In this document: piece by piece, positions 23,725 through 28,599 of the stretch
How positions within the stretch are numbered: position 1 is the stretch's first letter
Layout of the letters: each line of letters starts with the position of its first letter
Source: Gammaproteobacteria bacterium
GTDB taxonomy: Bacteria > Pseudomonadota > Gammaproteobacteria > QNFN01
DNA length: 32,818 nt
Assembly: GCA_009937385.1 (NCBI GenBank)
Contig: JAACFL010000002.1
Coordinates: 1-32,818, forward strand
Direction of reading: 5' to 3'
The notes under the pieces: model-generated
Databases searched by the model: none
What the model was told of the DNA's origin: nothing
The model's input: only the letters and a program-made list of their open reading frames with translations
Program-made: the position numbers and the translations under genes

Positions 23725-24393
23725 TCAGGAACCGGCGAGGTGGGCGAGGGCGTCGCGGTCGTGCAGTTCGATGCGGCCGCGGTGCAGGGCGACCAGGCCG
23801 CGGTGCTCGAAATCCTTGAGCAGGCGGCTGACCACCTCGCGGGCCGTACCGAGTTCGGTCGCGAGTTCCTGATGGGTGGCGTTGACCATGCCGTCACGGT
23901 CGGCCCCGTCGCGCAGGCGGGCGGCGAGGCGCAGGTCCATCCGCTCGAAAGCAACCTCCTCGACGAGCGTGATCAGGTCGGCGATGCGCCGGGCGTAGAC
24001 GGCGAAGACGAACTGGCGGAAACCGGTCGACCCTGCCAACAGCGCCTGGAACAGCGCGCCGGGCAGCGCGATGGCGCGCACCTCGGTCTCGGTGACGCCC
24101 TCGGCCGGGTAGCGCTCGCCGGCGAGAAGGCACGACGTGGTCAGGATGCAGGTCTGCCCGTCGCCGACGCGGTAGAGGGTGATCTCGCGGCCGTTGCTCG
24201 AGGTCTTCTGCACGCGCACCGAACCGTCGAGCACCAGCAGGTAGTTGGTGCAGGCGTCGCCGTCGTGGAACAGCGTGATCCCGGCCGGCAGCGTGACCGG
24301 GTGCGCCTCGGCGACGAGTCGATCGCGCGCGTCGGGCTCGAGCGCCGCGAGCTTCGGGAAGGCGTCGAGCCACGCGGCCGCGTCGTGCGGCAT
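23725..24393 (-). CDS. Crp/Fnr family transcriptional regulator
   Basis: The real start is the ATG giving MPHDAAAWLDAFPKLAALEP (222 residues); the track adds a 61-residue shadow from the upstream gene. An N-terminal cyclic-nucleotide-binding fold (about 10-130; GITLFHDGDACTNYLLVLDG, VGDGQTCILTTSCLLAGERY) is followed by a dimer helix and a Crp-type helix-turn-helix (THQELATELGTAREVVSRLLKDFEHRGLV). Cysteines occur at GDACTNY and TCILTTSC, not in the N-terminal Fnr cluster position, so an iron-sulfur or thiol sensor is possible but unproven. It lies 10 bases after the DAHP-synthase stop. Confidence 0.88.
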   Translation of the reverse strand: MPHDAAAWLDAFPKLAALEPDARDRLVAEAHPVTLPAGITLFHDGDACTNYLLVLDGSVRVQKTSSNGREITLYRVGDGQTCILTTSCLLAGERYPAEGVTETEVRAIALPGALFQALLAGSTGFRQFVFAVYARRIADLITLVEEVAFERMDLRLAARLRDGADRDGMVNATHQELATELGTAREVVSRLLKDFEHRGLVALHRGRIELHDRDALAHLAGS

Positions 24394-24403
24394 GCCGGGC
24401 TGG

Positions 24404-25543
24404 TCAGGCGGCGGATTCGCCACGTTGGCTCGCGGCGAATCGCTGTTGCAGGTCGAGGCGCTTGAGGTAGGCATCCCTTGCGATCTGCACGTCCTCGAGG
24501 AACAGCGGCAACTCGTCGAAATGCAGAGCCTGGGGACCGTCCACCAGCGCCTTGCTCGGCTCGGGGTGGAAGTCAACCAGCACCATGTTGGCCCCGGCGA
24601 TCACCCCCTGCACCGTGGCATGCATGACGTCGAGGATGCCGTCGGGATCGGCGTCACGGGTGCCCACCGAGTGCGATGGGTCGACGCAGATCGGCATGCG
24701 TGTGAAGCGCTTGACCACCGGCACGTGGGTGAAGTCGACGAAGTTGCGGTGCGGGTCGCCGAGGTTGGACTTCATGCCGCGCAGGCAGAAGATCACGCGC
24801 TGGTTGCCCTCGCTGGCGAGGTACTCGGCAGCGTTCAGCGACTCCTCGAGGGTGATGCCGAAGCCGCGCTTGAGCAGGACCGGGTAGTCGCTCTGGCGTC
24901 CGACCTGCTTGAGCAGCTCGAAGTTCTGGATGTTGCGCGTGCCGATCTGCAGCATCACGCCGACCGGGTCGCCCGCCTCCTGCAGGGCCTCGTGGATCTC
25001 CACGACGTGGTCCTCGTGGGTGACCTCCATGGCGACCACCTGCATGCCGTACTTGCCGGCCAGCTCGAAGACGTAAGGCAGGCAGCTCTTGCCGTGGCCC
25101 TGGAACGAGTAGGGATTGGTGCGCGGCTTGTAGGCGCCCATGCGCGTGCAGACCTGGCCGTGGTCGCGCAGCACCGCGAGCATGCGCTCGACGTGCTCCG
25201 GGGTGTCGACGGCGCACAGCCCGGCGAACACCTGCAGCGTGTCCTGGCCGAAGCGCACGCCGCGATATTCCCAGGAGGTCGGGCGGCGATCGTTCTTGTG
25301 CCGGCCCAGCACGCGGTACTCGCGTGACACCCGGACCGCGCGCTCCACGCCTGGCAGGCTCGCCATGTCATCGAGGTCGAGCAGTGCGGTGTCGCCGATC
25401 AGGTAGACCTCGGTGACCATCTGCTGGGCCCCCTGCACGTGATGTACGCGCGCCTGGATGTTGGGCAGGTTGGCGAGGTGTTCCATCAGCTCGGCGTACG
25501 GTGTGCTGCCCGGCTCGAGGTTGGAGTCGAGGATCAGGATCAT
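24404..25543 (-). CDS. DAHP synthase-like protein, type I-beta with ferredoxin-like N-domain
   Basis: 379 residues from the ATG at 25543, overlapping the amidase stop by four bases; the track's longer ORF is a shadow extension. The N-terminal ~90 residues look like the regulatory ferredoxin-like domain of type I-beta DAHP synthases, followed by the (beta/alpha)8 barrel with VFAGLCAVD, GAYKPRTNPYSFQG, QIGTRNIQNFELLK, VLLKRGFGITLEE and CVDPSHSVG. DAHP synthase joins phosphoenolpyruvate and erythrose-4-phosphate to start aromatic synthesis. Differences from the norm: GLC for GPC around Cys110, FCLRG for CERG, and VDFHPEP where Glu is usually the metal ligand (Asp324). It could be a genuine variant or have a changed substrate. 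Confidence 0.75.
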   Translation of the reverse strand: MILILDSNLEPGSTPYAELMEHLANLPNIQARVHHVQGAQQMVTEVYLIGDTALLDLDDMASLPGVERAVRVSREYRVLGRHKNDRRPTSWEYRGVRFGQDTLQVFAGLCAVDTPEHVERMLAVLRDHGQVCTRMGAYKPRTNPYSFQGHGKSCLPYVFELAGKYGMQVVAMEVTHEDHVVEIHEALQEAGDPVGVMLQIGTRNIQNFELLKQVGRQSDYPVLLKRGFGITLEESLNAAEYLASEGNQRVIFCLRGMKSNLGDPHRNFVDFTHVPVVKRFTRMPICVDPSHSVGTRDADPDGILDVMHATVQGVIAGANMVLVDFHPEPSKALVDGPQALHFDELPLFLEDVQIARDAYLKRLDLQQRFAASQRGESAA

Positions 25544-26466
25544 GCTTGCGGGTCCTTGCCGGGTTGGGATTCGGGGTCGCGGTAACGGTGCAGGAGATCG
25601 GCGTAGGCGTCGATGCGACGGTCGCGCAGGAACGGCCAGATGCGCCGCAGCTCCTCGGTGCGGCCGAGCGGCAGGTCGACGACCAGCACCTCCGGGGCGT
25701 CGTCCGGGGCCTGGCCGAGCAGCTCGCCCTGCGGGCCGCAGGCAAAGCTGCTGCCCCAGAAGTCGATGCCCGGGCCACCGTTCGGATCGGGCTCGTGGCC
25801 GACGCGATTGCAGGCCAGCAGCGGCAGGTGATTGGCCACCGCGTGGCCGCGCTGCACGGCGATCCACGCCTCGCGCTGGCGCGTCTTTTCGTCGTCCGCG
25901 TCCGGTGGATGCCAGCCGATCGCGGTCGGGTAGAGCAGCAGCCTGGCGCCGGCGAGCGCCATCAGTCGCGCGGCCTCCGGGTACCACTGGTCCCAGCAGA
26001 CCAGGACGCCAAGCGGGCCGAGGCTGGTGTCGATCGGGCGGAAGCCCTGGTCGCCCGGAGTGAAGTAGAACTTCTCGTGAAAGCCCGGATCGTCGGGGAT
26101 GTGCATCTTGCGGTAGGTGCCGGCCAGGCTGCCGTCGCTGTCCAGCACCACGGCGGTGTTGTGGTAGATCCCCGCGGCACGGCGCTCGAACAGCGTCGTG
26201 ACGATCACCAGACCGAGTTCGGCGGCCAGCCGGCCCAGGTGTTGCGTGGTCGGGCCCGGGATCGGCTCGGCGAGGTCGAAGGTCTCGACCCGTTGCGCCT
26301 GGCAGAAGTAGCGCGACGGGTGAAGCTCCTGCAGCAGCACCAGCCGGGCGCCGGATGCGGCTGCCTCGCGCACCCCGGCATCGGCCGTTGCCAGGTTTCG
26401 AGCGAGCTCTTCGCTGGCGGCATGCTGCACCAGGGCGGCACGCAGGGTTTGCGGGGTGTCGTTCAC
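25540..26466 (-). CDS. aguB: N-carbamoylputrescine amidase
   Basis: Splits N-carbamoylputrescine into putrescine, CO2 and ammonia. The GTG at 26466 gives 308 residues, the usual length; the track's longer start reads through the neighbouring gene. The nitrilase-superfamily triad is visible: LLQELHPS (Glu47), YRKMHIPDDP (Lys120) and VCWDQWYPEAARLMALAGA (Cys157), with the family-specific YPTAIG after it. It lies directly downstream of the agmatine deiminase gene and overlaps the DAHP-synthase-like gene by four bases, so the three are co-transcribed. Confidence 0.93.
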   Translation of the reverse strand: MNDTPQTLRAALVQHAASEELARNLATADAGVREAAASGARLVLLQELHPSRYFCQAQRVETFDLAEPIPGPTTQHLGRLAAELGLVIVTTLFERRAAGIYHNTAVVLDSDGSLAGTYRKMHIPDDPGFHEKFYFTPGDQGFRPIDTSLGPLGVLVCWDQWYPEAARLMALAGARLLLYPTAIGWHPPDADDEKTRQREAWIAVQRGHAVANHLPLLACNRVGHEPDPNGGPGIDFWGSSFACGPQGELLGQAPDDAPEVLVVDLPLGRTEELRRIWPFLRDRRIDAYADLLHRYRDPESQPGKDPQA

Positions 26467-26518
26467 GGCGTTTCGCTCGACGGGGGAGGGGGATGGTAGC
26501 ACCGGCGGGCCCGGCAGC

Positions 26519-27571
26519 TCATCCACCCAGGGGCAGTCCGGCCGGCATCTGCAGGGTGGCGCAGTGCAGGCTGCCATTCTCCTCGATCAGCGCGCGCGCT
26601 GGCACGCCGATCACCTCGCGGTCGGGGAAGGCGTCGGCGAGATGCCGCTGCGCGGTGGCATCGGCCGGGTCGCCGTAGACCGGGCACAGCACGGCGCCGT
26701 TGATGATGAGGAAGTTGGCGTAGGTCGCTGCCAGGCGCCGTCCGTCGTCGGCGTGCTGCGCGGTGGGCAGTGGCAACGGCACCAATCGGTAGGTGGCGCC
26801 GTCTGCGGTGCGCAGTGCGCGCAGTTGCTGCTCCAGGTCGTGCAACGAGGCGTGTGCCGGATCGGCACGATCCGGGCAGGTGACGTGGGCGATGGTGCGC
26901 GGATCGCAGAAGCGCACCAGCGTATCGACGTGGCCGTCGGTGTCGTCGCCCGGCAGCGGTTCCACCTCGAGCCAGATCACCCGCTGCAGGCCGAGCGCGG
27001 CCGCGAGACGGCTCTCGATGTCGGAGCGCTGGAGCCCCGGGTTGCGCGTGGCGCTGTCCAGGCAACCCGCGGTGGTCAGCAGCGAGCCGAGTCCGTCGCT
27101 TTCCAGCGCCCCCCCTTCGACCACCAGCGGCTCGCGACGCAGGTGCGTGCTGCCGAACAGTCCGCGCTCGTGCAGCAGCGCGGTCGCCAGGGCGTCGTGT
27201 GCGTGAGGGTACTTGCCGCCCCAGGCGTTGAAGGCGAAGTCGACCAGCTCGACATCACCGTCGCCGGCGACCGCCAGCGGACCGTAGTCGCGCACCCAGG
27301 TGTCGTCGGTGGGCAGGCATGCGAAGTGGAGCCGGGCTCCGGGGACTCCGGTGCCCTCGAGCCCGCCACGCACGTGGTCGCGGTGCGCCTGGTCGCGGCA
27401 GATCAGCAGCAGATCCTCGCGTTCGGCGATCGCGCGGGCCAGCGCGACGTAGTCGGATTCCGCGGCGGCCAGGCGTGGGCCCCAGTCGCTGTCGGCATGC
27501 GGCCAGGCGAGCAGCACGCCGGACTGCGGCGCCCACTCGGGAAGCAGGGTCGGCGCGGCGGGATCGCGCAT
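26519..27571 (-). CDS. aguA: Agmatine deiminase
   Basis: Turns agmatine into N-carbamoylputrescine and ammonia, the first step to putrescine. The ATG at 27571 gives 350 residues (family about 350-370); earlier track residues are a shadow. Landmarks: LLPEWAPQSGVLLAWPHADSDW at the start, DDTWVRDYGP (89-98), GHVDTLVRF in the middle and the catalytic cysteine in GSLHCATLQMP near the C-terminus (Cys337). Together with the next gene it makes the complete agmatine-to-putrescine route. The start has a poor ribosome-binding site. Confidence 0.93.
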   Translation of the reverse strand: MRDPAAPTLLPEWAPQSGVLLAWPHADSDWGPRLAAAESDYVALARAIAEREDLLLICRDQAHRDHVRGGLEGTGVPGARLHFACLPTDDTWVRDYGPLAVAGDGDVELVDFAFNAWGGKYPHAHDALATALLHERGLFGSTHLRREPLVVEGGALESDGLGSLLTTAGCLDSATRNPGLQRSDIESRLAAALGLQRVIWLEVEPLPGDDTDGHVDTLVRFCDPRTIAHVTCPDRADPAHASLHDLEQQLRALRTADGATYRLVPLPLPTAQHADDGRRLAATYANFLIINGAVLCPVYGDPADATAQRHLADAFPDREVIGVPARALIEENGSLHCATLQMPAGLPLGG

Positions 27572-27632: not shown

Positions 27633-27914
27633 TTAGCGGTGGACGACGCTGTGCAGGACGAGGTCGTGCTCGAAGAACACGGTGTAGCCCTCGTAGACCC
27701 AGCGCGAGATGGGCGGTTCACCGACCGAGGAGACCTTCTCCTTGGGCTCGCCGAATCGCTGGGCGACCTGGTCCATGCTCATCCCGTTGCCCGGGACGAT
27801 GACCGATACCATCGGCTCGGTGGCTGACGGTCCCTGCTGGGTCGCTGTGGACTGCGCGTGGGCCGCCGAAGCGACCAGCAGCAGGACGAGGCAACAGAGC
27901 AGCTTTTTTGTCAT
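27633..27914 (-). CDS. Small secreted hypothetical protein
   Basis: 93 residues with a signal peptide (TKKLLCCLVLLLVASAAHAQ, likely cut after AHA). The mature part contains GNGMSMDQVAQRFGEPKEKV and RWVYEGYTVFFEHDLVLHSV, a layout shared with small, uncharacterised proteobacterial periplasmic proteins that resemble the SmpA/BamE-type fold (MxxVxxxxGxP..). I do not know its function. ATG preceded by AGGGA. It is divergent from the TusA gene. Confidence 0.8.
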   Translation of the reverse strand: MTKKLLCCLVLLLVASAAHAQSTATQQGPSATEPMVSVIVPGNGMSMDQVAQRFGEPKEKVSSVGEPPISRWVYEGYTVFFEHDLVLHSVVHR

Positions 27915-28119: not shown

Positions 28120-28599
28120 GTGAACCCCGAATCAACCATCCCGCCCGATCTCGTACTCGATGCCCGCGGTCACCGCTGCCCGCTGCCGGTGCTCCAGGCG
28201 ACCCGCGCCGCCGCGCGCCTGCCGCGCGGCGCACTGTTGCAGGTGATCTCGGACTGCCCCGGCGCGCATGCCGACCTGCAGGCCTGGGCGCGCCAGACCG
28301 GCCGCGAGCTGCTCGAGGTGACCGAAGACGGTGACGGTGGGCAGGCCTACCTGCTGCGCAACGGTGACCGCTGGTTGCCCAGTGCCGTCCTCGACATGCG
28401 TGGTCACCCGTGCCCCGCGCCGGTGATCGAGGCGGATCGGGCCCTGTCCGGCCTGGCCGATGGAAAGGTGCTCAAGTTGCTCGGCGACTGCCGCGGTTTC
28501 GCCGACGAGGTCGATACCTGGACGCGCAGCACCGGGCGCCGGCTGCTTGGCATCGTGCCGGGCCCGTCCGGCAGCTCGGTCTCCTACATCCAGGGCTGA
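28120..28599 (+). CDS. Tandem double TusA-family sulfurtransferase
   Basis: 159 residues from a GTG with GGAGG six bases upstream. Two complete TusA-like domains are joined head to tail. Domain 1 (about 10-80) has LDARGHRCPLPVL and domain 2 (about 88-158) has LDMRGHPCPAPVI, each with the CPxP active cysteine (Cys20, Cys98) and a second matching cysteine in SDCPGA (46) and GDCRGF (124). Single-domain TusA carries persulfide sulfur in tRNA thiolation or dissimilatory sulfur oxidation. A fused pair could pass sulfur between its own two sites or act as a dimer in one chain; that is inference. Confidence 0.88.
   Translation: MNPESTIPPDLVLDARGHRCPLPVLQATRAAARLPRGALLQVISDCPGAHADLQAWARQTGRELLEVTEDGDGGQAYLLRNGDRWLPSAVLDMRGHPCPAPVIEADRALSGLADGKVLKLLGDCRGFADEVDTWTRSTGRRLLGIVPGPSGSSVSYIQG

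Follow-up and report, generated by a model that had tools for sequence, protein, structure and literature searches.

The gene cluster examined here lies in a window of 32,818 nucleotides (the whole stretch of DNA that was analysed) from a gammaproteobacterial genome, and it places a DAHP synthase-like gene with unusual active-site residues directly behind two genes of agmatine-to-putrescine conversion. The locus raises the question of whether this protein is a DAHP synthase of the aromatic pathway or a changed enzyme acting on another substrate, and whether its position behind aguA and aguB has any meaning.

Organization of the aguAB region

As read from the ORF positions, transcription is in the order aguA, aguB, DAHP synthase-like gene (DAHPS), Crp/Fnr gene, all on the − strand, and the four family assignments are supported by both Pfam and NCBIfam matches. 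The features are as follows.

26522..27571 (stop 26519-26521), − strand: aguA, agmatine deiminase; 350 aa, ATG start; PF04371, 363 bits
25543..26466 (stop 25540-25542), − strand: aguB, N-carbamoylputrescine amidase; 308 aa, GTG start; TIGR03381, 293 bits
24407..25543 (stop 24404-24406), − strand: predicted DAHP synthase of the variant type I clade; 379 aa; PF00793, 154 bits
25325..25477, − strand: ferredoxin-like (FXD, ACT-like) N-terminal regulatory domain of DAHPS, residues 23-73; PF18152, 28.8 bits (cut-off 27)
25214..25219, − strand: Leu109-Cys110 of DAHPS, GLC replacing GPC at the metal cysteine (134-sequence alignment)
24782..24784, − strand: Leu254 of DAHPS, CLRG replacing CERG (134-sequence alignment)
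24572..24574, − strand: Asp324 of DAHPS, replacing the metal-ligand Glu (E298 of T. maritima; 134-sequence alignment)
23728..24393, − strand: Crp/Fnr-family regulator; 222 aa; PF13545 and PF00027
23425..23718, − strand: YgaP-like transmembrane protein, adjoining the Crp/Fnr gene; PF11127, 81 bits

The earlier note on this DNA described all four genes as overlapping or about ten bases apart. This is accurate for aguB and DAHPS, whose stop and start overlap as ATGA, and for the ten bases between the DAHPS stop and the crp start, but the aguA-aguB gap is larger than stated, at about 50 bp. A search of the − strand across the region for a consensus promoter or terminator found none, which is compatible with one aguA-aguB-DAHPS transcript without being proof of it, and from their arrangement the three genes are probably co-transcribed. 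Upstream of aguA there is a small secreted-looking protein with no Pfam match (27633-27914, − strand), and proteins resembling it are encoded near the variant DAHPS in loci L036, L076, L090, L095 and L105. Divergent from the aguA side is a TusA-type sulfurtransferase gene (28120-28599, + strand) with two stretches matching PF01206.

The assignment of the first two genes to agmatine-to-putrescine conversion holds up both in the family matches (PF04371 and TIGR03381) and in the retention of catalytic residues. The nearest solved relatives of AguA are 1zbr and 2cmu/3hvm, the latter named agmatine deiminase, and comparison with these shows that the SLHC, DTWVRD and DGH motifs are retained; AguB was aligned to 6mg6 and to the N-carbamoylputrescine amidohydrolase 5h8i, and has the triad of Glu (in QELH), Lys (in YRKMHIP) and Cys (in CWDQW). 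The pair thus resembles the AguA/AguB pathway with an H. pylori type AguA (3hvm) in having the catalytic residues of both enzymes, and departs from it in that both proteins score below the equivalog cut-offs (206 against 382 bits with TIGR03380 for AguA, and against 410 bits with TIGR03381 for AguB) and in that a DAHP synthase gene comes next.

The Crp/Fnr gene had been taken as part of the agmatine operon, and a role as its regulator is not supported. It adjoins DAHPS in only four of 122 loci (the window, L015, L141 and L142), and in three of these (all but L015) a YgaP-like membrane gene comes after it. Because the adjacency is so restricted and the YgaP-like partner is shared by three of the four, the Crp/Fnr and YgaP-like genes are probably a separate module that happens to adjoin.

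Relationship to known DAHP and KDO8P synthases

The window DAHPS matches PF00793 well above the cut-off of 25.5 bits and falls short of the type I-beta cut-offs (221 against 267.75 bits with TIGR01361, and 261 against 335 with PRK08673). The top PDB match by sequence is the T. maritima DAHPS 1rzm, and by fold (AlphaFold2 model, mean pLDDT 81) a chimeric DAH7PS (4grs) is first, followed by 1rzm. The likeness to the T. maritima type of I-beta enzyme (1rzm, 1vr6) extends to domain order, fold, the residues that bind PEP and E4P, and three of the metal ligands out of four. At about 35% identity, however, the variant has extra residues in the barrel loops and several substitutions: the metal Glu is replaced by Asp, the Pro preceding the metal Cys and the Glu of CERG are both replaced by Leu, and at other sites Lys stands where these enzymes have Arg, and Arg where they have His. 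KDO8P synthases share the barrel and, with most variants, a DGP stretch at the loop of the metal Asp, but the variants carry KPRT rather than KANRSS at the aldose site and form a separate clade, and a variant and a KDO8P synthase coexist in the same genomes. Identity as a KDO8P synthase is ruled out by the KPRT motif, the separate clade and a score of 46 bits with TIGR01362 (cut-off 314).

The variants form a single clade with fixed residues

A scan of GTDB species genomes gave at least 565 relatives, and the best 80 of these, which were retained, are 70-76% identical and are mostly from Gallionella, Nitrosomonas, Nitrotoga, Competibacter and other beta- and gammaproteobacteria. The 88 variants of an earlier set share a median identity of 76% with one another and are about 35% identical to standard I-beta enzymes. 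The phylogeny proposed in the earlier note was computed, and the variants constitute one clean clade with an SH-aLRT of 100 and a very long stem. With the tree rooted on KDO8P synthases, it stands alone on the I-beta side, and long branches blur its exact point of attachment. Two loci with records titled Verrucomicrobia and Lentisphaerae (L035 and L044) encode variants 74% identical to that of the window, and are likely to come from mislabelled or mixed bins. Twenty-one plasmid records contain relatives, all below 60% identity, and none was demonstrated to be a close clade member.

Alignment of 114 variants with 20 standard I-beta sequences shows that the oddities noticed in the window protein (GLC, FCLRG/CLRG and Asp324) are not noise. 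Leu109, Leu254 and Asp324 are each present in 114/114 variants, whereas the standard enzymes have Pro, Glu and Glu, respectively, in 20/20; Arg255 next to Leu254 is kept throughout. Lys258 (Arg in standard I-beta) is likewise invariant, and Met135 (mostly Gly in the standard enzymes) and Arg282 (His) have one exception each among the 114. Using the list of PEP- and E4P-binding residues from a characterised I-beta enzyme (PMC6362186), we find R134, K139, R141, R203, K225, R255, H291 and D335 in every variant, and T142 in 111, with Ser in the other three. For the metal site, His291 and Asp335 are universal, Cys110 is present in 113, and the fourth ligand is Asp for Glu in all 114. Metal sites are reported as totally conserved among the DAHP synthases compared in PMC6362186, and the Glu to Asp change is therefore a real departure, although a conservative one. 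An inactive paralogue or pseudoenzyme is ruled out by the kept substrate-binding residues and the high conservation of the clade.

Distribution and companion enzymes

The class was surveyed in 383 near-complete genomes, with completeness of 98% or more in nearly all; the variant occurs in 99 of them, never in more than one copy. We examined 80 near-complete clade-bearing genomes (79 from the survey plus G012) for other DAHP synthases. A standard enzyme accompanies the variant in 67, being I-alpha in 41 and I-beta in 26 with no overlap, and in the other 13, from seven families, no I-alpha, I-beta or type II enzyme was detected; two further genomes from an earlier set (one apparently a duplicate) are likewise without type II. 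In each of the 13, and in the two further genomes as well, there are just two PF00793 proteins. One is the variant; the other scores 238-255 bits and has the KANR motif of KDO8P synthases in most of those read. AroB, the substrate of which is DAHP, is present in all of these genomes and was the one shikimate gene checked. Sole-copy genomes are found on the deepest branches and again within the main group, a pattern that needs six changes by parsimony on the tree.

The window genome (G000, 93% complete) was also searched for another DAHP synthase. It encodes a standard I-alpha enzyme (on contig C152, 493 bits), a type II enzyme truncated at the end of its contig (C261:7171-8169, 451 bits) and a KDO8P-synthase-like protein (C244). 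Type II enzymes are rare among clade-bearing genomes (2/32). The type II gene could be assembly contamination. The suggestion that the variant might be just the housekeeping copy was worded for a genome with no other DAHP synthase and does not apply to this one, and as the whole story it is rejected here given the I-alpha and partial type II enzymes. Because of these extra enzymes such a test cannot decide function in the window genome, and it is the relatives that do so.

Function of the variant enzymes

That the variant is the sole detectable DAHP synthase in 13 of 80 near-complete genomes while AroB is retained indicates that members of the clade very probably make DAHP. The earlier note had offered two options, an aromatic-pathway isozyme or an enzyme acting on another substrate; the former is favoured by the sole-copy genomes and the latter is not. 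Judged from sequence comparison, we think it likely that the variant is a genuine DAHP synthase representing a distinct type I subclass closest to I-beta, and not an enzyme of new substrate specificity. Its members usually keep the ACT-like N-terminal domain, and they keep the residues for PEP and E4P binding. Of the metal ligands three are retained and the fourth is Asp in place of Glu, and Leu, Met, Leu, Lys and Arg are fixed where I-beta differs. The enzyme would act as an isozyme beside the standard enzyme in most host lineages and as the sole enzyme in some. Presumably the Asp site uses a metal and the enzyme is under feedback control.

Several observations sit less easily with a genuine DAHP synthase. 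A metal ligand that is reported as totally conserved in the PMC6362186 comparison is altered in every member, one sole-copy member is without the metal cysteine, and two of the deepest members are without the N-terminal domain. In about three quarters of the loci no aguAB linkage was found. The presence of a standard enzyme in 67 of the 80 genomes, with the variant being single-copy and highly conserved, makes a second, non-redundant job possible. A rival reading is that the variant condenses PEP with another phosphorylated aldose in a different pathway, perhaps one linked to polyamines, and is DAHPS-like in appearance only. The long stem branch, the coexisting standard enzymes, the recurrent aguAB neighbours and the many positions where the clade is fixed for a residue other than that of I-beta (some in or beside the active site, including the metal ligand) are in its favour, but we consider it improbable, as the E4P-binding KPRT motif and the PEP residues are kept, no other DAHP-making candidate was found in the 13 near-complete genomes with AroB, and there is no sugar-acid pathway among the neighbouring genes. 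A second rival reading is that the protein arose as a DAHP synthase and still is one in the sole-copy lineages, but has a moonlighting or specialised role (for example as a differently regulated or secondary-metabolism isozyme) where a standard enzyme is also present, as in the window genome with its I-alpha and partial type II enzymes. There is precedent in the type IIB DAHP synthase, an isozyme for secondary metabolism (PMC6435475). Specialisation of this kind is conceivable and we are doubtful of it, since sole-copy and accompanied members share the same fixed residues and no biosynthetic cluster was recognised around the variant in the loci read. A genuine DAHP synthase of a distinct subclass is the reading we prefer. 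Such an enzyme, carried once by roughly one in four sampled genomes of the class, standing alone in some lineages and altered at a metal ligand, would extend the diversity known among DAHP synthase active sites.

Linkage to aguAB

The operon neighbours were compared in relatives as the earlier note had proposed, and the linkage is both real and recurrent. In 32 of 122 distinct variant loci aguB lies upstream of DAHPS in the same order and on the same strand, and aguA is present too in most of those where the flank reaches. Many families are represented among the linked loci, one of which is L191, a sole-copy member that branches deep (59% identity). Apart from aguAB no neighbourhood theme was found in the flanks read. 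A search for reports of either the subclass or the aguAB-DAHPS link, made mostly among open-access papers, found none there, in agreement with the statement that the link was not known as described. The variant branch is widespread, unclassified and apparently undescribed, although database entries may well list its proteins under the plain name of DAHP synthase.

If the genes are co-transcribed in many gammaproteobacterial families, the supply of aromatic compounds and of putrescine may rise together, and a transcriptional link, if demonstrated, would be a novel connection between the two supplies. It is nonetheless quite possible, if somewhat short of an even chance, that the genes are neighbours through ancestry only, as bystanders without regulatory meaning. 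The aguAB-DAHPS gaps vary from an overlap to 1.3 kb, and in many Gallionellales genomes (L032, L042, L046 and others) the variant gene lies instead behind genes for argB, a HAD phosphatase and a TetR-type regulator, the names of which were read from the sequences and not by family search. Against a bystander arrangement are the unvarying gene order and orientation in the 32 loci, which come from many families, the near-overlap of genes in several of them, and the nine changes needed to account for the linkage on the tree.

A candidate metal-independent member

The single exception at the metal cysteine is a deep-branching member, L192, a 3729-base locus (− strand) in genome G300 (98% complete), where Cys is replaced by Asn (AGLNAV). 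The Asn codon is AAT, which is two base changes from either Cys codon, and no other DAHP synthase was found in the same genome. A Cys to Asn change defines the metal-free KDO8P synthases (PMC3052366), and L192 resembles these non-metallo enzymes in that exchange. This one sequence is thin evidence, and it makes L192 a candidate metal-independent DAHP synthase. More tentatively, the clade might be viewed as a third type I subclass with a Cys/His/Asp/Asp metal site, in which at least one lineage (that of L192) has become metal-independent through the Cys to Asn change; we would not count this as probable. The subclass would supply natural material on why DAHP synthases need a metal. L192 is without the N-terminal domain, and the same is true of L193 in its aligned part.
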